Origin: a virus
Virus record (IMG/VR): IMGVR_UViG_3300004369_000685
Span: 1-36,823 of that record
Length of the DNA: 36,823 nucleotides
Reading direction: 5' to 3' (one strand)
Positions 1-33,075 of this stretch are shown in pieces (the first letter of the stretch is position 1; the number at the start of each line of letters is the position of its first letter). The position numbers and the translations under genes were made by a program. The notes beneath the pieces were generated by a model that saw only the letters and a program-made list of their open reading frames with translations, searched no databases and had not been told where the DNA came from.

Positions 1-377
1 TCCTTATTAGTGGTTGTGCAAGTACAAAGCAATTAGAAATCTTTACTAAAGAAGTAGAACGTATGCCGTTAGACTTAGAACTTCCTCCAGTTGTCATATT
101 AGAACAAATAAATTGGAAGATTATAAATGAGGGTAATCAAGAAGAAGTATTTGCTGAACTTAAAAAAGCAAATATAGATCCTGTATTATTTGGTCTTACT
201 GATGAGGACTATGAGTTACTACAAAAAAATAATGTACAAATGAGAAATCAAATCATCAGATACAGAGCAATAATAGAAGCATATAAAGAATATTATGAGC
301 CTGAAGAAGCAGAAGGCAAAAACAGTATTATCAAGCCTAAAAACTTTGAACCAAAAAAATTAAAAAACGACGGTTAA
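1..377 (+). CDS. o-spanin-like (Rz1-like) outer-membrane lipoprotein, 5' end missing
   Basis: The frame is open from the window edge, so the start lies upstream. The first visible residues, LISGCAS, form a lipobox with Cys as the lipidation site, so the mature protein would be anchored in the outer membrane. After it come a proline-containing stretch (LELPPVV), a tryptophan (INWKI) and a C-terminal helical part (LTDEDYELLQKNN) ending in a charged tail. This layout resembles the o-spanin lipoproteins of T4-like marine phages, which join an inner-membrane spanin to fuse the two membranes at the end of lysis. No i-spanin partner is visible here; it may lie upstream. A Met at position 63 is in frame but starting there would remove the lipobox, so I reject it as the start. 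The spanin call rests on lipobox and layout, not on a conserved catalytic motif. Confidence 0.6.
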   Translation, partial: LISGCASTKQLEIFTKEVERMPLDLELPPVVILEQINWKIINEGNQEEVFAELKKANIDPVLFGLTDEDYELLQKNNVQMRNQIIRYRAIIEAYKEYYEPEEAEGKNSIIKPKNFEPKKLKNDG

Positions 378-438
378 AACTGTTTATTATAATCACCACT
401 TATCCTTATACTAATTCAAATTACCGGTTAAATATAAC

Positions 439-473
439 GTAAAAATTATTTTTACATCGGCTCAGTATTGAGC
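439..473 (+). terminator. two tandem hairpins between the spanin-like gene and the TonB receptor gene
   Basis: Hairpin 1 is GTAAAAA-TTA-TTTTTAC (439-455). Hairpin 2 is GCTCA-GTAT-TGAGC (460-473), followed by TTT. Both lie in the 128-base gap upstream of the receptor gene. They could end transcription of the spanin-like gene, but the T-tract is short, so termination strength is uncertain. Confidence 0.35.
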
Positions 474-505
474 TTTAACACACAAGCGATAATATAGGAG
501 TGGTT

Positions 506-3500
506 ATGAATATTCGCAACCTATTCCTTGGCATAATGGCTTCGTTTTTTATAACGACACCGTTGTATGCACAGGAAACAACCTCCGCAATTCGAGGAGT
601 AGTCACAGACTCTTCAGGTGCGGTGGTATCAGGAGCAGAAATCTCCGTAGTACATGAGCCGTCAGGTTCAGTATCGACCCAAGTAACTAATGAGCAAGGT
701 GTTTTCCTAGCACGAAATCTTCGTGTAGGCGGACCATACTTGGTCACTGGTGAAAGTGGAGCAAAATATGGTGCAGTTGATAGCATCTTTCTTGAACTTT
801 CTGAAACGGAGAGAGTACGTTTAGTACTTGGTGCCGCTGAGTCAGTTGAAGAAATTGTTGTTGTTGGACAAGCCGTAAATGCAGGTGGTCTTATCACAGG
901 ACCAAGAAGTACATTGTCAGCATCACAAATTGGTGACATAGCAAGTGTCAATAGAGATCTTAAAGACGCAGTTGCTACACAGCCTTTTGTTAATGTTTAT
1001 AGTATTTCATTCAATAGTAGCGACACAGAAAGTATCAGTATAGCAGGTACTAATGCTAGATATAGTGCTTTTAGTGTTGATGGTATTGGGCAATCAGATG
1101 ACTTTGGTCTAGAGTTTGGTGGTTATCCTGGAGTTAAATCTCCTATATCACTAGACTCTGTAGAGCAAGTATCTGTTAGTGTTGTAGATTATGATGTCAG
1201 AGACTCAGGTTCTACAGCAGGTGTTATCAATGTTGTTACCAAATCTGGTACTAATGAACTATCAGGTTCTGCGTATGGATTCCAAACTGGAGACAGTTGG
1301 GTTGGTGACGAAATCGACGGCCAAGATGTGACTATTGGTGAGTTCGAAGAGGACACACAAGGCTTTACATTAGGAGGACCTATTGTAAAGGATAAATTAT
1401 TCTTCTTCGTGAATTGGGATAAATTTGAAAAAATGGAACCTGGTTTATATGGTGCCGCAGGTAGTGGTGCTTTAATCGAAGTAGATGGTGTTAGTCTAGA
1501 AGATGCAAACAGAATTGTTGATATTGCAAGTTCAGTATATAACTATGATGCAGGTTCGGCCTCAGGTATGAATAACTCATTGCTTGATGAAGACATGTTG
1601 GTTAAATTGGACTGGAACATCAATGACTCACACAGAGCAACTTACACACATCAAACATCAGAGAATAATAATGTAAGTGAATACGGTGGCGGTAATACTG
1701 TGTTAGCACTAACAAGTGGTAACTACATCAAAACTACTGACTTGACTGCTGACAGTTTCCAACTGTTCAGTGACTGGAGCGACAGCCTATCTACCACATT
1801 TAGATATGGTGATAGATTAGTTGAAACAGCACAGTCAAGTGTTGGTGGCGATGACTTTATGAGAGCAATCGTAGAGTTAGGAGAAGGCGATAGAGGACCA
1901 CAAGTCCTAGTAGGACCTGATCCATTTAGACATTACAACTTCTTGGAAACAGAAACCAGTGAGTTAGAATTTGAAGTATCTTATTTAATGGGTGCTCACG
2001 AATTTGTTGCTGGATGGGCCAAGAATTCAGTTGATGTAGCAAACGGGTTTGTTGCATACTCAGACGGTGTTCTTGAATACGCAAGTATTGAGGACTTTGA
2101 GAACAAGAATCCTTATAGCATTGACTATAGAAACTCCCCAAGTGGTAATCCAGCCGATGGAGCCGCTTTCTTTGAAATCGAAACAACCAGTTTCTTTGTT
2201 CAAGATACTTGGGACGTCAGTGATAGACTAACTGTACAATATGGTGCTCGTTGGGAAGAAATTTCCATGGACGATGCTCCCAGGTACAACGAAACACTTG
2301 AAGGCTATTATGGCTTCAGAAATGATGTCAGTTTAGACGGTAAAGATGTTTTCTTGCCAAGAGCAAGTTTCACATATGACGCAGATGATTTCGGTGCTTT
2401 CCGTGAAGTAAGATTCAGGGGTGGTGCTGGATACTTTACAGGTGGTAGACCAAATGTATGGATGGGTGGTACTTTCAGTAATGACGGTATTGGTATCCAG
2501 AATGCTAACGTACCATTATCAGCGGCCGCAGGGTTCGATGGTTTTGATACATCAGTATTTGATCAATACATTTACCAACCTGGTCAACCTGGTTTTAGAC
2601 CAGCATACGCAGATCTATTAGATCCTAACTTTGAGTTACCTAGAGAGTTAAAACTTTCTGTTGGTGCTGATTGGGTAATGGGTGATGATTATTTCTTTAG
2701 TGCTGATTTCCTAGTAACCAGAACTGACAAAGATCTACACTTTAAGCAACTTAGAATCGGTAATCCAGCATTTGGCGGTATTGCTAATTGTGATATACCT
2801 GTTACTAACCTACCAATTGGTGTGGGCCCAGATGGCAGAGATATCTATGCTGATTACAGTCTTTGTAGTAAAGCAATGGAAAGGTTTATTGACTACTTAG
2901 GTTATGATATGTTACTTACTAACACTGACAAAGGTGAAAGTGAATTGTTTGCCCTTAGTGTAAGCAAAGCATTTGAAAACGGATTTGATTTCTATGCTAA
3001 CTATACCTGGATGGATGTTGATACAGTTGGTAACTTAACTTCAAGCAGAAACATTTCTAACTTTAAATATACAACTAAGTATGCTGACTTTAATGAAGAT
3101 GTACTTCATAGATCCGTATATGAAAGAGAACATTCCTTTAGTTTTGTAGGTAACTATACTGCTAATTGGTTTAAAAATGCTCCTAGCAGATTCTCATTCA
3201 TTGCTAGTGCTGTAAGTGGTGAGCCTTTCTCATACACATTAGGACAGTATAAAGACGGTGCTTTATGGGGTCTCGACAGAGAATCAGCAAGAGACGAAAC
3301 TGCGGCATTTTATGTCCCAGATGGATCTGGAACAGACGTAATTATACCTAGTTGGTTTGCTGATGACTTTAATGCGTATCTTGACGCTTCTGGCTTAAGA
3401 GCATACGCAGGTGGTTTTGCACCAATAAATGGTTTTGAAACAGATTGGAATTATAGACTTGACTTTAAATTTACACAGGAACTTCCTGGTGTAGGATTTA

Positions 3501-3760
3501 CAGACAAAGACAAGTTTATTATTACACTTGACATTCAAAACTTCCTCAATTTCCTTGATAGCGATTGGGGTAAGCAAACCAAAGCAAACGGTACAGCAAG
3601 AAGTATTGCAGAGGCTACACCCATCAACAATGGTGATGGTACATGGTCATATGAATACAGACCTGCTTATGGTATGAACATTGATAGAGTTGATAACCAA
3701 GTTACCAACTACTATAGAAGTTTGTATCGTATCCAACTTGGATTTAAATACGTTTTCTAA
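506..3760 (+). CDS. TonB-dependent receptor, Oar-like, with N-terminal carboxypeptidase-regulatory-like domain
   Basis: This is a full-length outer-membrane TonB-dependent receptor of 1084 residues, the usual size of Oar-like members. I place the start at the ATG at 506, five bases after AGGAG; a GTG at 500 lies inside that ribosome-binding site. Residues 1-22 form a signal peptide ending LYA. About residues 27-95 form a beta-sandwich regulatory-like domain (IRGVVTDSSGAVVSGA). A TonB-box-like EEIVVVG lies at 115-121, then a plug domain (about 125-240, with DNVVTKSGTN-type plug-end sequence VINVVTKSGTNELSGS), then the beta-barrel ending YVF, with the C-terminal Phe typical of barrel proteins. 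Such receptors import siderophores, vitamins or glycans using TonB energy. In a phage it is an accessory gene. Five of the first six Arg codons are CGN, while later ones are mostly AGA as in the neighbours, suggesting a recruited bacterial gene that is partly ameliorated. Confidence 0.93.
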   Translation: MNIRNLFLGIMASFFITTPLYAQETTSAIRGVVTDSSGAVVSGAEISVVHEPSGSVSTQVTNEQGVFLARNLRVGGPYLVTGESGAKYGAVDSIFLELSETERVRLVLGAAESVEEIVVVGQAVNAGGLITGPRSTLSASQIGDIASVNRDLKDAVATQPFVNVYSISFNSSDTESISIAGTNARYSAFSVDGIGQSDDFGLEFGGYPGVKSPISLDSVEQVSVSVVDYDVRDSGSTAGVINVVTKSGTNELSGSAYGFQTGDSWVGDEIDGQDVTIGEFEEDTQGFTLGGPIVKDKLFFFVNWDKFEKMEPGLYGAAGSGALIEVDGVSLEDANRIVDIASSVYNYDAGSASGMNNSLLDEDMLVKLDWNINDSHRATYTHQTSENNNVSEYGGGNTVLALTSGNYIKTTDLTADSFQLFSDWSDSLSTTFRYGDRLVETAQSSVGGDDFMRAIVELGEGDRGPQVLVGPDPFRHYNFLETETSELEFEVSYLMGAHEFVAGWAKNSVDVANGFVAYSDGVLEYASIEDFENKNPYSIDYRNSPSGNPADGAAFFEIETTSFFVQDTWDVSDRLTVQYGARWEEISMDDAPRYNETLEGYYGFRNDVSLDGKDVFLPRASFTYDADDFGAFREVRFRGGAGYFTGGRPNVWMGGTFSNDGIGIQNANVPLSAAAGFDGFDTSVFDQYIYQPGQPGFRPAYADLLDPNFELPRELKLSVGADWVMGDDYFFSADFLVTRTDKDLHFKQLRIGNPAFGGIANCDIPVTNLPIGVGPDGRDIYADYSLCSKAMERFIDYLGYDMLLTNTDKGESELFALSVSKAFENGFDFYANYTWMDVDTVGNLTSSRNISNFKYTTKYADFNEDVLHRSVYEREHSFSFVGNYTANWFKNAPSRFSFIASAVSGEPFSYTLGQYKDGALWGLDRESARDETAAFYVPDGSGTDVIIPSWFADDFNAYLDASGLRAYAGGFAPINGFETDWNYRLDFKFTQELPGVGFTDKDKFIITLDIQNFLNFLDSDWGKQTKANGTARSIAEATPINNGDGTWSYEYRPAYGMNIDRVDNQVTNYYRSLYRIQLGFKYVF

Positions 3761-3778
3761 AACTATCCAATAAATTGA

Positions 3779-3807
3779 AAAAAAGGGTGTTTCGGCACTC
3801 TTTTTTC
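3779..3807 (+). terminator. Rho-independent terminator after the TonB receptor gene
   Basis: An 11-bp stem with one G-T pair (AAAAAAGGGTG at 3779-3789, CACTCTTTTTT at 3796-3806) encloses a TTTCGG loop and ends in a run of T. It separates the receptor from the dnaJ promoter that follows at once. Confidence 0.85.
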
Positions 3808-3835
3808 TTGACATAAATAATATTTTTGTTATACT
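3808..3835 (+). promoter_or_regulatory. sigma70-type promoter for the dnaJ-clpA-lysozyme operon
   Basis: TTGACA (3808-3813), 16-base spacer, TATACT (3830-3835). The expected +1 is about 3842, one base from the ATG at 3843, and no Shine-Dalgarno sequence is present, so the mRNA may be leaderless. CATAAATA, a possible late-promoter core, overlaps the -35 box at 3812-3819. Confidence 0.8.
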
Positions 3836-3842
3836 AATGACT

Positions 3843-4649
3843 ATGGATCACTACCAAACTTTGGGGGTCTCTCGCGACGCCTCACAACAGGATATTAAGA
3901 AAGCCTATCGCAAACTAGCGATGAAGCATCATCCTGACAAAGGTGGTGATGAACAACAGTTCAAACTGATTAATGAAGCATACGACACATTAAGTGATCC
4001 AAACAAACGTGCTCAGTATGATAACCCAAATCCGTTTGAACAGTTTGGGCAGGGTTTTGGTAACAGTCCGTTTGCTGATATATTTGGCGATATTTTTGGA
4101 CAACGTGTTAGAAGACCTGCAAAAAATCCAGACGGCATAATAGATGTTTCTATATCATTGTTGCAGGCATACACTGGAACAAACATTATAGTTGATACAG
4201 GACATGGTACTTTTGATGTAGCAATACAGCAAGGCATACAAGATGGTGCTAGGCTAAGACTTGCAGGGAAAGGTCCTATTAGAAACTCTGCATTGCCGCC
4301 TGGAGATTTAATTGTAAGGGTACAAATAAATTGTCCCTATAATTGGGGTAGAGATGGTTCGGATTTGTTCTTTAGGCAGAATATAAATGCCATAGATGCA
4401 ATGACAGGATGTACTATTCAAATAGCTCATATTGATAATAAGAAATATGAATTGAGGGTGCCTCCAGGTACCCAACCAGGTAGCAGGCTAAAAATGACTG
4501 GTCTTGGCATGTCAGACCCACGTGGTGTCGTAGGCAATTTATATATTTTAATAGAACTAGATGTACCCACTATAACTAGCGATGAGGACAAAGAACTTTT
4601 AAATAGGATTAAAGAAAGAAATTTTTATGGAAAGCAAATATATAGATAA
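3843..4649 (+). CDS. dnaJ: DnaJ/CbpA-like J-domain co-chaperone
   Basis: The N-terminus [14 protein letters not shown] and the HPD tripeptide in MKHHPDKGG show a complete J-domain (residues 1 to about 65), which stimulates Hsp70 ATPase. A Gly/Phe-rich linker follows ([19 protein letters not shown]). The C-terminal part has the two beta-barrel substrate-binding domains, but the CXXCXGXG zinc repeats of type I DnaJ are absent, so this is a type II, CbpA-like protein. At 268 residues it is slightly shorter than CbpA (about 306). I prefer the ATG at 3843 to that at 3837 because it gives the family's normal start and fits the predicted +1. The gene overlaps clpA by 23 bases. No DnaK is visible, so it presumably recruits host DnaK. 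Confidence 0.93.
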
Positions 4650-6816
4650 TATTATTCAGAACGCAGTTACTTTTGCTAAAGACAAAAATCATGAATATGT
4701 GACTCTGGAACATATTATGTTCTGTCTTTTAGAAAATGAAGACATTATTACATTATGTAAAGAGTGTAAAATAGAAATTAATAATATTATAGAAGATTTA
4801 AATCATTATCTCACTGACGAACAACTTAATGGTTTAATAAGTCAGCATGGACCAAAAGGTGACCCTAAAAAAACACAAAGTATAGAAAGAATTGTACAAA
4901 GGGCATTAGCACAAGTAATTTTTAGTGGCAGAGAAGAAGTTAAACCTCTAGATATGTTTATTAGTATTCTAAGTGAAAAAAATTCTCATGCCGCATATTT
5001 TTGCAAATTAAATGGATTAGATAAAAATCTTGTTATAGATCATTTGGAAAACAAATTTAATTCTGCAAAGGGAAAAGAGTTAATAGAAGAATACACAACT
5101 AACCTTAATGAAGAAGCTCAAAATAATCGAATAGATAAACTTATTGGCAGATATGAAGAAGTAGATGAGTTAGTACATATACTTGCAAGGCGTAAAAAGA
5201 ATAATGTTGTATTAGTAGGAGAACCAGGCACAGGTAAAACAGCAGTAGCAGAAGGTCTTGCTAAAAGAATAGTGGATGGTGACGTACCAGATGTAATTAA
5301 AAATAAAATCATATACAGTCTTGCTGTAGGAGATTTACTTGCTGGTACCAGATACAGAGGAGACTTTGAAGAAAGATTCAAAGTAGTTCTAGAAACATTA
5401 GAAGCAAGTCCTAATGCCATTTTGTTTATTGACGAAATACATATGATTATGGGTGCAGGTTCGGCAGGTAGCAGTAGTGTTGATATTGCAAACATGATTA
5501 AGCCTGTGTTAGGCAAAGGCAGACTGCTTACTATAGGTGCTACTACACCAGATGAGTTTGCAGATAGTTTTGAAAAAGACAGAGCTTTGATGAGAAGATT
5601 TGCAAAACTGGATATAGAAGAAACCAGTGTTGAGGACACAAAAGAAATTTTAAAAGGTCTGAATAACTATTACGAAGATTTTCATAAAGTAAAATATTCA
5701 GAAGATATTTTAAAAAAGTCTGTTGATTTATGTCATAGGTACATTAAAAATAAAGCCTTCCCAGACAAAGCATTAGATGTTGTTGATGCCGCAGGTGCTA
5801 GAGTTAAACTCAGAGGAGAAGATACTGTTACCCTAAAAGATGTTATACAAGTTATCAGTAAAATATCTCATGTAGGCGAAGATGTAATAGACATAGAAAA
5901 AGTGGATAGTTATAAAAATCTGGATACCAGAGTAAAACAAACAATTTATGGACAAGACGAGGCCATAGATAAAATTGTGGAAAATATCATTGTTAGTAAG
6001 TCTGGACTCAGAGAGAAAAACAAACCTATTGGTAGTTTTTTATTAGTTGGGCCTACAGGTACAGGTAAAACTGAAACTGCCAAAACACTTGCTAAAGAAT
6101 TAGAATGTAAATTAATAAAATTTGACATGTCAGAGTATATGGAAAGACATAGTGTTAGTAAATTAATAGGTGCCCCTCCAGGATATGTAGGACATGCTGA
6201 AGGTAAATTAGGACAAGGTTTAATGTTGGCAGAGGTTGAGGACAATCCAAATTGTGTGCTACTACTAGACGAAGTAGAAAAAGCCGCACCAGAAGTTTTA
6301 AATGTTTTATTACAGGTTATGGACGATGGCAAACTAACAGGTAGCACAGGTAAAGTTGTGGATTTTAGTAACGTAATTTTATTAATGACAAGTAACCTTG
6401 GTGCCACTGATGCTGATGCACTTAAAATTGGATTTGGTGATCAAACAAAAGTTAAAGCAATAGACAAAGCAGTTGAAAAATTCTTCTCTCCTGAGTTTAG
6501 AAACAGGTTAGATGATATTATCACATTTAATAAATTAGCAAAAGAACTGATGGTAAAAATAGTGGATAGACTAGTTAAAGAAACTAACGAGCTATTATCA
6601 GAAAATGAAAGCTCAGTAAAAATTAATATTACTGATGCATGTAGAAATAAATTAGCAGATGACGGTTATAAACCCAGCATGGGTGCAAGGCCACTGAAAA
6701 GAGTGTTTGAAGATAAAATTAAAAAACCTTTAAGTAAAAAAATCTTATTTGAAGACCTAACACAAATAACAATCACTGTAGATGTATCAGGAGAAGATTT
6801 TATCTTTTCAACATGA
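4627..6816 (+). CDS. clpA: ClpA-like AAA+ unfoldase (Hsp100)
   Basis: A two-ring AAA+ ATPase of 729 residues. Residues 1 to about 145 are a Clp N-domain ([13 protein letters not shown]). D1 has Walker A GEPGTGKT at 198-205 and Walker B FIDEIH with D269/E270. D2 has Walker A GPTGTGKT at 475-482 and Walker [10 protein letters not shown] with D548/E549. The coiled-coil middle domain of ClpB is missing and the length is near that of ClpA (758 in E. coli). The tripeptide IGF (601-603) lies just before [10 protein letters not shown], where ClpA carries the ClpP-docking IGL loop. This suggests that it can dock on host ClpP and feed it substrates. It is translationally coupled to dnaJ upstream and shares ATGA with the gene downstream. 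No ClpP or ClpS is visible here. Confidence 0.93.
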
Positions 6817-7908: not shown

Positions 7909-7916
7909 GATAAATA
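7909..7916 (+). promoter_or_regulatory. T4-type late promoter (GATAAATA)
   Basis: GATAAATA followed by GT lies 24 bases before the start of the small virion gene. It matches the NATAAATA late core used by T4-like phages, read by RNA polymerase carrying gp55 and the gp45 clamp. Confidence 0.75.
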
Positions 7917-24246: not shown

Positions 24247-25779
24247 ATGATAGATTTAGGAAAGACACAAAAAGATTATGCATTCTATTTACCTGCTATT
24301 AGTAGTTTTTATGTAAAACAATTAGACAACCTACAAAAAGAAGTTGCTCCAAGAGTTCCTGAAGGCTTTGAGTTAGGTCATGGGGGTATGGATTTCCTAA
24401 AAGACAAAGACACATATTATCATTATCCCTGGGGATTATATTCAGCCGGTCATGCTCAACTGGATTTAGAAAAACTAGATACTGAGCCTATGATTACTGA
24501 CAGAGATAGAAGCAAGACAATGATACTAGGAGACTCAGGTGGTTTCCAGATTGCTACTGGTGTCATTAAAATGGATTGGGCGAACGCAATTAATCCAAAT
24601 GATCCTGAAAGAGAAAAACTTGTAGATAAAATTCTTAAATGGGAGGAAGAACAATGTGACTGGGCTATGACACTTGATGTTCCTCCTTTTGCGGCCTTCC
24701 CTCCTTTTAATAAGAAAACAGGATTAGAAACATTTGAGCAAACTATGACAATTAGTTTGTATAATTTAGATTACTACATGAAGAACAGAACACCTGGTAA
24801 GTGTAAGTTCTTAAATGTTATGAGTGGTGTTGATCAGCCTACATGTGATGAATGGTATGAAAAAGTAAAACACTTTAGTGATCCTAAGTTTTGTCAAGAA
24901 GCATATGGCAATAGCGAACTTGCATTAGAAGGTTATGCATTTGCTGACTTACAAAAACGTAATATGAGAATGGCACTAAGACGTATTTTAAAACTTAGAG
25001 AGGATGGATTACTAGAAGGAAAAGGTTGGATACACTTCCTGGGTACAGGCAAACTTGATTGGGCATGTTATTTGACAAGCATACAAAGAATGTTAAGAAA
25101 ACATGATAGTCCAAATATCTGCTTGAGTATGGATGCCGCAAGTCCATTTGTTAATAGTGCATATGGTAGTACATATACACATAATAGTTTCCATCCTAAA
25201 AAGTTCAGTTACTTGATGGACAGAGCAATAGATAATCAGGCACTTAAAGGCTCTGACTTGCCTATGCCTTTTGCACACTCTCCTATAATGAGCAGACTTA
25301 CTGTTGGAGATATTTGTGCAATGGCAGAAGGAGACTTAGACAAAAATGGTAAAGCAAAAGGTCCAGACAGTACAAGTTGGGACACACAGAGTTACTTATA
25401 TTATATGGGACATAGTGTTTATAATCACATAACCGCGGTACAAGAAGCAAACAGACTAGCAGATGTAGAAAAATACAGAGCAAACGTACATTACACTGAT
25501 TACATAAATGACAAGAGCTCAGGCAAAAGCAATGAGTTTAGTCCTTATGTTCCTGCAAAGGCATTATACTTTGATAGTTTTTGTCAGGAAGTATTAGATC
25601 CTGCTTGTCCAGATCCATATCAACTAATAGAAGATAATATTAAATTGTTAAATGAACTTAGTTTTGGTGCAAAAACAAATGCAGGATTTGGCGCCTTTTT
25701 TGAAGAAGAGGAGTTTGATGCAGACGATGATGTTAGTGCAAAAACACATGATATCATGTCTGGAGATTTTGAGGCATAA
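24247..25779 (+). CDS. dpdA: TGT-fold 7-deazaguanine transglycosylase, DpdA-like
   Basis: 510 residues, longer than bacterial TGT (about 375). The TGT signature DSGGFQ (D96 to Q101) is intact; its Asp contacts the base. CDWAMTLDVPPF matches the TGT strand with a following Asp, HFLGTGKLDW matches the 'MGVGxPED' loop, and LSMDAASP with D296 is at the expected place of the nucleophile. A CxCxxC zinc site typical of tRNA-TGT is not evident. This fits the DpdA family, which exchanges guanine in DNA for a 7-deazaguanine and so blocks restriction enzymes. folE and queE are about 6.5 kb downstream. It starts directly after gp45, so the modification gene is read with the replication genes. An RNA target remains possible. 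Confidence 0.8.
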   Translation: MIDLGKTQKDYAFYLPAISSFYVKQLDNLQKEVAPRVPEGFELGHGGMDFLKDKDTYYHYPWGLYSAGHAQLDLEKLDTEPMITDRDRSKTMILGDSGGFQIATGVIKMDWANAINPNDPEREKLVDKILKWEEEQCDWAMTLDVPPFAAFPPFNKKTGLETFEQTMTISLYNLDYYMKNRTPGKCKFLNVMSGVDQPTCDEWYEKVKHFSDPKFCQEAYGNSELALEGYAFADLQKRNMRMALRRILKLREDGLLEGKGWIHFLGTGKLDWACYLTSIQRMLRKHDSPNICLSMDAASPFVNSAYGSTYTHNSFHPKKFSYLMDRAIDNQALKGSDLPMPFAHSPIMSRLTVGDICAMAEGDLDKNGKAKGPDSTSWDTQSYLYYMGHSVYNHITAVQEANRLADVEKYRANVHYTDYINDKSSGKSNEFSPYVPAKALYFDSFCQEVLDPACPDPYQLIEDNIKLLNELSFGAKTNAGFGAFFEEEEFDADDDVSAKTHDIMSGDFEA

Positions 25780-26277: not shown

Positions 26278-26937
26278 ATGAAGAAGGCAGATTTAAACAA
26301 TTTTTTAGCAATAGTAATGCTGTTTTTTACAGCAGAAACCTTTGCATCTGGTAGTGCTAACATTGGAGGCACTTTTATAAACAGTGATGAATCTACATTT
26401 AATGCTAGTGTTGATGGTCAGTGGGAACGTGATAAATGGCAACGAATATTTGAATTTGATTATGTGTATAAAGAAAGCCAAGATATTAAAACTTTAGATG
26501 AACTATACACAGGTGTTAAAATAAATTATACTTTTGCTCCTAAGCATTACGTTTTTACTCAATTAATTTATGATAATGATAAATTTAGAGCAGATAAGCA
26601 AAGACTTAGTATGGCATATGGTTACGGTTATAAACTTTTAAGAACAGAAAAATTTAAAGCAAGTAATGAAATATCAATAGGTTATTTGAATAGTGACTTG
26701 TTAGATGAAGTAATTTACAGAAACAGTTTATGGTTTTTTTATAAGTTAGCAGATAGAGTAAATTTAACTAACAAATATTTGATAGAATGGGGAGATGGTG
26801 CTGACGATTATGTTAGAAACGAAACATCTCTTAATTATAACTTTGATAATGGTATAGTATTAGGACTTGCTAATACATATACAGAAGATCCGATTGACAA
26901 TAATATTTTAAGTGTTACAATAGGTGTTAGTTGGTAA
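26278..26937 (+). CDS. outer-membrane beta-barrel protein, DUF481-like
   Basis: 219 residues. Residues 1 to about 24 form a signal peptide (basic MKKADLNN, hydrophobic FLAIVMLFF, then TFASG). The mature part alternates polar and aromatic residues in many strands (WQRIFEFDYVYKESQDIK, KINYTFAPKHYVFTQL, NKYLIEW) and ends in Trp (VTIGVSW), a barrel-type C-terminus. The pattern is that of the DUF481/YdiY family of bacterial outer-membrane proteins. A DUF481 protein is no part of the T4 core. It could change the cell surface, for instance to hide the receptor from other phages, or help the host under stress. It is the second outer-membrane barrel in the window, and starts 8 bases after the previous stop. 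Confidence 0.75.
   Translation: MKKADLNNFLAIVMLFFTAETFASGSANIGGTFINSDESTFNASVDGQWERDKWQRIFEFDYVYKESQDIKTLDELYTGVKINYTFAPKHYVFTQLIYDNDKFRADKQRLSMAYGYGYKLLRTEKFKASNEISIGYLNSDLLDEVIYRNSLWFFYKLADRVNLTNKYLIEWGDGADDYVRNETSLNYNFDNGIVLGLANTYTEDPIDNNILSVTIGVSW
26894..26921 (+). promoter_or_regulatory. sigma70-type promoter inside the DUF481-like gene
   Basis: TTGACA (26894-26899), 16-base spacer, TACAAT (26916-26921). The predicted +1 is about 26928, 22 bases before the next ATG at 26950, and would drive the small genes, csp, the T-fold gene and the sugar genes. Confidence 0.6.
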
Positions 26938-30822: not shown

Positions 30823-31022
30823 GTACTGTACAAAGTTTAACAAATCATTTAAAACATTTGGAAGACATACACCGAGAACTAGATAAAAAGATTACAAGAC
30901 ATTGGGAACATCATGATAGTGATGATAAAATTAGGCAAGAGAAGTTGGAAAAACTAACTCTTAAAAGAGAAATTGAAGAATTAAAGATACAAATCAAGGA
31001 AAAGCAAAATGAAGGTAAGTGA
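30819..31022 (+). CDS. DUF465 (YdcH-like) helical protein
   Basis: The ATG at 30819 shares ATGA with the previous stop; a further ATG at 30810 is within that gene and I reject it. The 67-residue protein (HLKHLEDIHRELDKKI, then KLEKLTLKREIEELK) follows the DUF465 pattern of two amphipathic helices, in which the second half reads 'L-K-x-x-K-L-x-L-K-x-x-I'. DUF465 proteins are common in proteobacteria and their role is unknown. Confidence 0.75.
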   Translation: MSTVQSLTNHLKHLEDIHRELDKKITRHWEHHDSDDKIRQEKLEKLTLKREIEELKIQIKEKQNEGK

Positions 31023-31698
31023 TAAAATTACACAAAGAATTAAAGAAGCCGGAGCAAAGTATTGGGCAAGTGATAATGTTGCACAATTTATGGATGAAGG
31101 CGATGACCAGGCTCTTATAGAAGAACTTATTCCTCATTTTGAAGGTGTTTTAGATACACTTATTATTGATAGACATAATGATCCTAACAGTCAAGGTACT
31201 GCAAAACGTCTTGCTAAAATGTATATCAATGAACTTATGTGGGGCAGATATAATGATATGCCTAATGCCACAGCATTTCCTAATGACATAGAAGAAGGTT
31301 ACAAAGGTATGTTGGTAGTAAGAAGTGAAATACAAAGTATGTGTTCTCACCATCATCAGCCTGTTAAAGGTGTTGCCTACATTGGTATTATTGCAGGAGA
31401 AACTCTTATAGGGCTTTCTAAATACACTAGAATAGCACAATGGTGTGCAAGACGAGGTACATTACAAGAAGAACTTGCTAATGATATTGCTAGAGAAATT
31501 ATGAAAGCAACAGGAAGTAAAAACTTAGGTGTTTATATACAAGCCACACACGGTTGTGTAGAGAATAGAGGTGTGTTAGCACATAGTAGTTTAACACAAA
31601 CAACTGTGTTAGAAGGTAGGTTTATGGAAGATCAAAGCACTAAAAAGGAATTTTTTGATAATATTAAACTACAGCAACAATATGCATGTGACAAATAA
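31009..31698 (+). CDS. folE: GTP cyclohydrolase I
   Basis: 229 residues. The zinc and substrate site SMCSHHHQPVKG has C112, H114 and H115, matching E. coli C110, H112 and H113, and HGCVENRGV has C183 matching C181. The substrate loop LIGLSKYTRIAQWCARR is conserved. It converts GTP to dihydroneopterin triphosphate, the first step of both folate and 7-deazaguanine synthesis. Beside queE in a phage operon it belongs to deazaguanine synthesis. It overlaps DUF465 by 14 bases, with AAGGA before the ATG; its stop shares TAATG with the next gene. Confidence 0.93.
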   Translation: MKVSDKITQRIKEAGAKYWASDNVAQFMDEGDDQALIEELIPHFEGVLDTLIIDRHNDPNSQGTAKRLAKMYINELMWGRYNDMPNATAFPNDIEEGYKGMLVVRSEIQSMCSHHHQPVKGVAYIGIIAGETLIGLSKYTRIAQWCARRGTLQEELANDIAREIMKATGSKNLGVYIQATHGCVENRGVLAHSSLTQTTVLEGRFMEDQSTKKEFFDNIKLQQQYACDK

Positions 31699-32207
31699 TG
31701 ATTAGTACTCGTAACGGACATTTAATTTATGGAAGGCATGCCGTTCCTGTTAGAGAAGTTGTAGATTCTATCTGCGATAGAGCTCATATGGATTGGATTT
31801 GTGCAAGATATCCATTAAAACCAGTAGAGGTTTTAGAATGTTTAGATGCTATTGCAGACATAGATAAGTTAGGTGGCGGCGAACATTTAATTTTAAGAAA
31901 TAGCTCAGACAATCCTTCAGATGTTACTATAGAAATTACAAGTATTTCTGATATATTTTTTCTTAAAGTAATGCAATATGGAAAAGTATTTTTAGAAAAC
32001 GAATATAATTTTAATTTATTGTATGATAAAGGTTTTAGAATGTGTGCAATAGAATCTTTTGAAGACATAGTAAATGGAAGTGTTGGTTATGAAAGTAGCG
32101 AAATACATACTATTGTTGTTTCAGCAATTTTAGATATTGCTGGCCCAGACTTTGATAAAGAATTATTTATAAAATTTTTAAAGGAAGAAGATGAAGCTCA
32201 GGTATAG
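31698..32207 (+). CDS. protein with DUF433-like N-terminus between folE and queE
   Basis: 169 residues. Residues 1-60 (GHLIYGRHAVPVREVVDSI, then CARYPLKPVEVLECLDAI) resemble DUF433, a winged helix-like domain found in antitoxins. The rest is not recognised. It overlaps queE by 17 bases and shares TAATG with folE, so it is made with both enzymes. It may be a regulator or a helper of the pathway. It does not have the CxxxHGH motif of QueD. Confidence 0.55.
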   Translation: MISTRNGHLIYGRHAVPVREVVDSICDRAHMDWICARYPLKPVEVLECLDAIADIDKLGGGEHLILRNSSDNPSDVTIEITSISDIFFLKVMQYGKVFLENEYNFNLLYDKGFRMCAIESFEDIVNGSVGYESSEIHTIVVSAILDIAGPDFDKELFIKFLKEEDEAQV

Positions 32208-33075
32208 CGAAGCATTTTACTCAGTACAAGGAGAAGGCAGATTTGTTGGTGTGCCTAGTATCTTCTTAAGAGTATTTGGTTGTAACTTTGAGTGTGCAGG
32301 GTTTGGACAACCTAGAGGTGATTTGATTGCAACAGATCAGATGCCTTATGCTATAGATCCTAAAGCGGACAAAAATCATCCAGAAGCATATAAAAGCATA
32401 GATGAGTTACCTGTCACACCTATTGGGTGTGATTCCAGTGCCAGTTGGGCAATGAAATATAAACATTTGCAGATGACTAAAACTGTAGATGAAGTGTTTG
32501 ATCACATCACATCATTGTTACCAAATGGCACTTTCACTGGCCAACACGGTGAAGACATACACCTGGTGATCACAGGTGGAGAACCGCTACTAGGGTGGCA
32601 ACGTGTTTGGCCAGCACTTTTAGATATGTGCAGAAGGGTTGGGTTGAAAAACGTAACCTTTGAAACCAATGGAACACAAAAAGTTAAAAGCGAATTAGTA
32701 AATTATTTTAATTTACAGAATCAGGATATACATGTTACCTGGAGTACAAGTCCTAAATTAAGTATAAGTGGAGAAAGTACTGATGATGCTCTTATACCTG
32801 ATGCTTTAAGATCAATGAACGAAGTTGAGAACAGTTATTTGTATAACAAATTTGTTGTAAGAGACAATTTGTGTATAGATGAAGTAGATATGTTTGTCGA
32901 TAGTTATAAAGAATCTGGCGTAAAATTAGATTCTGTCTATCTTATGCCTGAGGGTGCTACATTCGAGCAACAAACTCTTACAGAAAAAGGTGTAGCAGAA
33001 ATTTGTATGAATACAGGATACAAATTTAGTCCCAGATTACATATTAATTTATTTGGTAATGCCTGGGGTACTTAG
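32191..33075 (+). CDS. queE: 7-carboxy-7-deazaguanine synthase, radical SAM, with split cluster motif
   Basis: 294 residues. The start LRYSEAFYSVQGEGRFVG is the QueE signature. The cluster-binding Cys are C31 and C35 (FGCNFEC) and, after a 44-residue insertion, C80 followed by D81 (IGCDSSASW), instead of the compact CxxxCxxC. The insert (GFGQPRGDLIATDQ...) is family-typical of long phage QueE proteins. The SAM-binding GGEPLL (in VITGGEPLL) and the TNGT strand (FETNGTQKV) are present. It makes 7-carboxy-7-deazaguanine from 6-carboxytetrahydropterin. QueC, the next enzyme, is not seen, so the host may provide it. Confidence 0.93.
   Translation: MKLRYSEAFYSVQGEGRFVGVPSIFLRVFGCNFECAGFGQPRGDLIATDQMPYAIDPKADKNHPEAYKSIDELPVTPIGCDSSASWAMKYKHLQMTKTVDEVFDHITSLLPNGTFTGQHGEDIHLVITGGEPLLGWQRVWPALLDMCRRVGLKNVTFETNGTQKVKSELVNYFNLQNQDIHVTWSTSPKLSISGESTDDALIPDALRSMNEVENSYLYNKFVVRDNLCIDEVDMFVDSYKESGVKLDSVYLMPEGATFEQQTLTEKGVAEICMNTGYKFSPRLHINLFGNAWGT

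Follow-up and report, generated by a model that had tools for sequence, protein, structure and literature searches.

An Oar-type TonB-dependent receptor gene traded between T4-related jumbo phages and T5-like phages, with a possible role in nutrient import

Why should a bacteriophage encode a complete outer-membrane receptor? The question is posed by a gene at positions 506–3760 of a 36,823-nt stretch of viral DNA (IMG/VR record IMGVR_UViG_3300004369_000685, positions 1–36,823), which is one metagenomic contig and is referred to in its whole length as the window. A first-pass annotation had read this gene as a full-length Oar-like TonB-dependent receptor (TBDR) in a T4-like phage, and had listed nutrient import, a change of the cell surface and a decoy as possible roles without choosing among them. 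Our analysis places the gene in two unrelated phage groups, between which it has moved, and the evidence favours import: we rank nutrient import as the most likely role, exclusion of rival phages next, and then a decoy and other Oar-type functions.

The gene is intact. Its 1084 codons run without a stop, and the 1084-residue product carries the regulatory-like domain, the EEIVVVG motif, the plug and the barrel ending in phenylalanine (Phe, a C-terminal aromatic residue) that the annotation had described (Table 1). Read by eye, the N-terminus shows a positive n-region, a hydrophobic core and an AxA-like LYA/Q. Pfam assigns the barrel to OMP_b-brl_4 (PF25183; 99.6 bits, cut-off 30) and TonB_dep_Rec_b-barrel (PF00593; 28.1 bits, cut-off 27); the Plug domain (PF07715) scores 22.5 bits in the window receptor, just under the cut-off of 23.9, and 26.0 bits, over the cut-off, in the related copy L006. 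An AlphaFold2 model, which the annotation had proposed as a check, was built from a 70-sequence alignment (pLDDT 82.7, pTM 0.82) and replaced a run with six phage sequences only (pLDDT 36); its top PDB fold matches were all TBDRs (FusA, YddB, PirA, FepA, Cir and PfeA; probability 1.00). The model predicts a large barrel with an N-terminal plug inside, as expected of a TBDR, although DSSP divides the barrel region into 24 strand segments and does not resolve the canonical 22. EEIVVVG stands before the plug as a TonB box should, as a motif, and aligns across the phage copies, where the main group has EE[ILV]VV and L006 has EEEVVVTA. The predicted CarboxypepD_reg extension between signal peptide and plug points to the Oar-type subclass, which is defined by such an N-terminal extension (PMC1790865). 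No PHROGs family matched the receptor.

Three scans of viral contigs, a comparison that the annotation had also suggested, recovered the receptor in ten further IMG/VR contigs at 70–89% identity. Six are jumbo-phage contigs like the window (group A: L005, L007, L008, L009, L010 and L011), and in each the receptor lies directly before dnaJ–clpA; in the other four (group B: L006, L198, L199 and L200) it lies directly before the small terminase gene. Group B is T5-like: the large terminase of L006 is 48–50% identical to those of T5-like phages of Vibrio and Pectobacterium, its small terminase is about 40% identical to that of Vibrio phage phi 3 (Demerecviridae), and the contig has head and tail genes of its own, with virion genes unrelated to those of group A.

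In both groups the receptor appears as a moron, lying between two genes that are direct neighbours in relatives. In group A phages without the receptor (L012, L014 and L015), dnaJ begins about 45 bp after the spanin stop codon, with its promoter in the gap; the window has about 3.4 kb of extra DNA there (roughly 378–3806), which bears out the self-contained inserted cassette that had been surmised from the window. In group B phages without the receptor (L213, L216 and L222), a promoter region with CTTGACA-17-TATAAT serves the small terminase; in L006, L198 and L200 this entire region precedes the receptor, and its core (about 50 bp) occurs again between the receptor terminator and the small terminase. 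Because the promoter region stands on both sides, the group B insertion is bracketed by a duplicated promoter, and insertion via recombination at promoters is plausible. Loss of read support at the joints 377–506 or 3760–3843 had been named as an outcome that would speak against the gene; the same joints recur in independent contigs from other metagenomes, and the window receptor is a real phage gene.

When bacterial homologues are included in a tree, the phage receptors all fall into a single clade (100/100), set off by a long stem of 0.7–0.9 changes per site, and are not nested in one host strain, the placement that would have spoken against a viral gene. Groups A and B interleave within this clade: L198 and L199 of group B are nearer to the window than is L007 of group A, and the approximately unbiased (AU) test rejects group A or group B as a single clade (p = 0.001 and 0.003). 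Therefore, the receptor gene moved between phage families; neither its sharing with T5-like phages nor this movement had been spotted in the first-pass annotation. Exchange has also been recent. In L002, L003 and L004 (shorter fetches of L005, L009 and L011), DNA between roughly codon 130 and the terminator is for the most part 95–100% identical, locally down to 87%, and identity drops to 50–80% in the flanking genes. Synonymous divergence (dS) between L005 and L011 is 0.14 for the receptor vs. 1.63 for clpA and 1.39 for dnaJ, with similar contrasts for pairs with L008; across the pairs of L005, L008 and L011, the receptor (dS 0.14–0.21) is 5–12 times lower than dnaJ and clpA (1.0–1.6). As constraint at the protein level alone cannot cut dS so far, recent exchange is the simplest reading.

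The ratio of nonsynonymous to synonymous divergence (dN/dS) is about 0.07–0.16 for pairs with estimable dS, which indicates that the receptor is under purifying selection. The N-terminal extension evolves fastest (pN/pS about 0.45, vs. 0.15–0.26 for plug and barrel), and against the nearest copies the plug and barrel stand at about 0.16. Among six diverse phage copies, identity is higher in the long loops than in the strands (0.80 vs. 0.70, p = 8e-6), whereas 62 bacterial homologues show the reverse order (0.35 vs. 0.40, p = 3e-5), with p-values that assume independent sites and strand limits taken from the model. The conserved loops span aa 646–712, 749–810, 841–875 and 904–981. Because its long loops are more conserved than its strands, the phage receptor is held to a specific outer surface, as would be expected if it binds one particular ligand rather than taking part in an arms race.

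A search against bacterial Oar-like receptors, likewise proposed at the outset, found none above 38% identity: the best bacterial identity was 30–37% in a genome-wide (GTDB-based) scan, at most 37–38% among 369 genomes of one class, and 35% in a plasmid scan; the scan was seeded by short peptide patterns and may miss relatives, but a close relative would very probably have matched. Oar-type TBDRs of marine Gammaproteobacteria (Pseudidiomarina, Psychrosphaera and Colwellia; L093, L145 and L119) share the domain order and length of the phage receptor, but are 30–37% identical to it, fall outside the phage clade and have the reversed loop conservation. Genes near the bacterial homologues encode Exo_endo_phos enzymes, S1/P1 nucleases, alkaline phosphatases and deoxynucleoside salvage enzymes, and once PhoB–PhoR with a phosphate-binding-type protein. 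Of the 79 homologues, 38 have a nuclease, alkaline phosphatase or Exo_endo_phos gene no more than about 5 kb away, compared to 1 of 40 other TBDRs sampled in ten of those genomes (Fisher p = 7e-8); the probes for this neighbour search were taken from three of the homologue loci, and the loci are phylogenetically clustered, mostly in Gammaproteobacteria, and not independent. A ten-genome comparison (10/10 with such neighbours) was not used as evidence, its genomes having been partly picked after the hits were seen. These neighbours suggest that the receptor family helps to scavenge nucleic acids or phosphate, which for the phage protein is a lead and not a proof. On the bacterial side, Oar-type receptors of marine Gammaproteobacteria (L093, L100, L112, L119, L145 and others) often have genes for secreted nucleases or phosphatases, and for deoxynucleoside salvage, next to them, an arrangement that resembles an as yet uncharacterised locus for scavenging nucleic acids or phosphorus.

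We propose, with somewhat less than even confidence, that the gene is a mobile single-gene phage cassette encoding a working TonB-dependent importer. Such a moron would form one transcription unit, with a leader and a terminator of its own, that sits between resident genes and is traded among phages; once it is expressed, the infected cell would export the receptor and insert it in the outer membrane; the TonB box would couple it to host TonB–ExbBD; and, while infection lasts, the receptor would take up a particular nutrient, most probably products of DNA breakdown or some other compound that contains phosphate, to the benefit of phage DNA synthesis. Three observations favour import: purifying selection keeps the plug and TonB box, no part of the receptor is more conserved than the loops, and bacterial homologues stand beside nuclease and phosphatase genes. 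The perfect or near-perfect sigma-70 promoters ahead of the gene in L006, L198, L200 and L007 also count in favour of the proposal. The fuller proposal, that two unrelated phage groups trade an importer of extracellular nucleic-acid fragments or phosphate compounds for phage DNA synthesis, we hold more tentatively.

Several observations weigh against the importer. In the relatives G001, G004 and G007 the sole promoter-like element, CTATAAATATG at the position equivalent to GTTAAATA of the window, looks like a late promoter, and a receptor made late would have little time to bring a benefit through import. The link to nucleic acids and phosphate rests on homologues at 30–37% identity, beyond a long stem branch, and on the clustered loci and three-locus probes described above; several of the closest homologues (Azospirillum, Emcibacter, Woeseiaceae and Aliidiomarina) are without nuclease or phosphatase neighbours; and the phage contigs, which are fragments, yielded no nuclease or phosphatase of the kinds in question.

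The receptor could instead remodel the cell surface for superinfection exclusion, displacing, masking or competing with host receptors (or competing for TonB) and so barring rival phages. T5-like phages are known to enter cells through TBDRs, and phages with T5-like terminase genes are one of the two homes of the gene; the group B receptor adjoins a curli secretion cassette, another change of the cell surface; and the sigma-70-type promoters before the receptor in L006, L198, L200 and L007 (11–12 of 12 positions) suggest use by host RNA polymerase, and hence probably early expression. However, a mere blocker needs neither plug nor TonB box, yet plug and barrel are constrained even against the nearest copies, and an arms-race surface should diversify, which the long loops do not. 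We regard exclusion as possible but, on balance, unlikely.

Two further readings are less probable still, and about equally so. A decoy would mimic the host protein bound by the phage itself, sparing progeny from debris or re-adsorption; a complete outer-membrane protein with conserved loops would suit this role, but the GTDB-based scan and the 369 genomes of one class gave no close bacterial model (at most 37–38% identity), which weighs against a copy of a host receptor, and near-relatives of the gene occur in two phage groups whose virion genes are unrelated. Another Oar-type function, e.g. protein export or adhesion instead of import, draws on a parent family that is poorly characterised and on the Oar-type N-terminal extension, but the genes that lie beside the bacterial homologues indicate scavenging. 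Finally, an assembly chimera or accidental, functionless host cargo, conceivable for a single metagenomic contig, can in practice be regarded as refuted, since the insertion recurs independently across several metagenomes, in seven jumbo-phage contigs (including the window) and in four T5-like ones; the absence of stop codons, dN/dS of about 0.1 and the viral clade also speak against it.

Table 1. Features of the receptor locus in the window
Feature	Position	Strand	Basis
Rz-like spanin gene, upstream anchor, 5' end beyond the window	3..377	+	phrog_812, E 1e-6
GTTAAATA, weak promoter candidate for the receptor	427..434	+	motif survey, inference
Leader hairpin 1, GTAAAAA-TTA-TTTTTAC	439..455	+	sequence, relatives
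Leader hairpin 2, GGCTCA-GTAT-TGAGCT	459..474	+	sequence, folding
Shine-Dalgarno-like AGGAG	496..500	+	sequence; kept as AGGAGTGGTTATG in L005, L008, L011
Oar-type TBDR, intact	506..3760	+	open reading frame, Pfam, AlphaFold2 model, PDB fold matches
Signal peptide, aa 1–22	506..571	+	read by eye; aa 1–23 are a low-confidence segment of the model
CarboxypepD_reg, Oar-type N-terminal extension, aa 29–108	590..829	+	PF13620, 45.6 bits (cut-off 32.3)
TonB-box-like EEIVVVG, aa 115–121, between extension and plug	848..868	+	sequence motif, alignment
Plug domain, aa 131–225	896..1180	+	PF07715, model strands, family profile match to Cir plug
Beta-barrel, long extracellular loops, terminal Phe	1256..3757	+	PF25183, PF00593, model, loop-vs-strand conservation
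Intrinsic terminator, hairpin and T-run after the receptor	3779..3806	+	fold z = -3.0
Sigma-70-type dnaJ promoter, TTGACA-16-TATACT	3808..3835	+	11/12 positions match
DnaJ-like chaperone gene, downstream anchor	3843..4649	+	PF00226, PF01556
ClpA-like ATPase gene, downstream anchor	4627..6816	+	phrog_4871, E 6e-240

The window receptor has weak candidates only for a promoter of its own, and a terminator hairpin behind it. GTTAAATA is one mismatch off GATAAATA, a motif of the same phage that is close to the T4 late promoter and precedes structural genes in the window. GATAAATA stands 30–80 nt upstream of gene starts, mostly structural, at window positions 7909, 8360, 13785, 19338 and 36372, recurs in relatives and is the probable late promoter of this jumbo-phage group; the strict late motif TATAAATA showed no enrichment in the window, where GATAAATA is the native form. 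Downstream of the promoter-like element, a GTA...TAC leader hairpin is present in most receptor copies of both phage groups (including L005, L008, L011, L006, L198 and L200), and equivalents of hairpin 1 have altered stems (TGTAGGAA/TTCCTACG in L006, CTGTAGGAAA/TTTCTTACAG in L200, TGTAAGA/TCTTACA in L005). An Rfam search of the leader found no riboswitch and no other known RNA. Hairpins also follow the receptor in L002, L004, L006 and L007 (fold z -3.2 to -4.7); a simple pattern scan did not detect the terminator of the window. The dnaJ promoter corresponds to the resident promoter at the junctions of the receptor-free phages L012, L014 and L015.

The description of the phage as T4-like stands in a broad sense, that of T4-related jumbo phages: a family B polymerase, which in the window follows lysozyme and tail fibre genes, a gp44-like clamp loader in the relative L004 and the late-type motif point to T4-type replication genes and a T4-type late promoter, in a window fragment that has none of the virion core genes of T4. 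The nearest cultured relatives are jumbo phages (PA5oct, Phosso and Atu_ph07): the polymerase is nearest (about 43–45%) to those of Phosso, Vibrio phage 2.275.O and Atu_ph07, and ClpA to that of PA5oct (46.6%). PA5oct (Arenbergviridae) shares with the window group the order phoH, structural genes, dnaJ and clpA, but has no receptor before dnaJ; Sinorhizobium phage Phosso also has dnaJ and then clpA, but with a peptide deformylase between them and, again, no receptor before dnaJ.

Elsewhere in the window, positions 26278–26937 encode a second outer-membrane-type protein (DUF481, PF04338) with a 39% homologue in the T5-like contig L229; positions 31009–33075 encode GTP cyclohydrolase I (FolE) and a QueE-like radical SAM protein, a pair that suggests 7-deazaguanine synthesis, perhaps for DNA modification; and positions 24247–25779 encode a 510-aa protein, 57–91% conserved in relatives, with no Pfam, NCBIfam or PHROGs match. 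In group B, the small terminase is followed by a curli cassette with CsgG, a curlin-like protein, FecR and a CHASE2-adenylate cyclase (L006:11728-17454, L198, L199 and L200), and about 16 further T5-like loci (L211–L229) have a curli-type cassette past the small terminase, mostly including the CHASE2-adenylate cyclase. The published curli cassettes considered here are those of pelagiphage podoviruses and myoviruses; these type VIII secretion cassettes resemble the receptor as cell-surface genes of marine phages that cross phage families, but consist of other genes, and it is in T5-like phages that the receptor adjoins such a cassette (PMC9599517, PMC7029224).

A phage TBDR as a kind was known once before. 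In the literature searched, one earlier report named a TBDR, “SusC”, in the marine megaphage Mar_Mega_1 and in LR745206, and suggested that it aids uptake (PMC9723777). Although both are TBDRs carried by marine phages, the Mar_Mega_1-type SusC has 805 aa and belongs to a separate family, related to the window receptor through the general fold alone: in a viral structure library the sole strong full-length fold match was the “uncultured marine phage” SusC protein A0A8D9FQQ5, at 10% identity in the fold alignment, and LR745206 gave no PF25183 match and no tblastn match to the window receptor. No exchange of the Mar_Mega_1 SusC between phages was reported (PMC9723777). In INPHARED, one match covered most of the receptor gene, an unverified 6-kb fecal clone labelled “Bacteriophage sp.” (L197, MT837825.1; 25.6%) that is probably bacterial DNA and was set aside; no other match of this extent was found. 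The present receptor family, its presence in two phage groups and its exchange appear to be new.

Phage nutrient genes known so far mostly act at the inner membrane, in the periplasm or in the cytoplasm. The phages described here carry the gene for a 1084-residue energised outer-membrane gate, which is under selection and has passed between T4-related jumbo and T5-like groups. If it is an exclusion factor, the receptor would be a new exclusion device; if it is an importer, these phages would control the first uptake step in Gram-negative bacteria, reprogramming active uptake across the outer membrane of the cells they infect.

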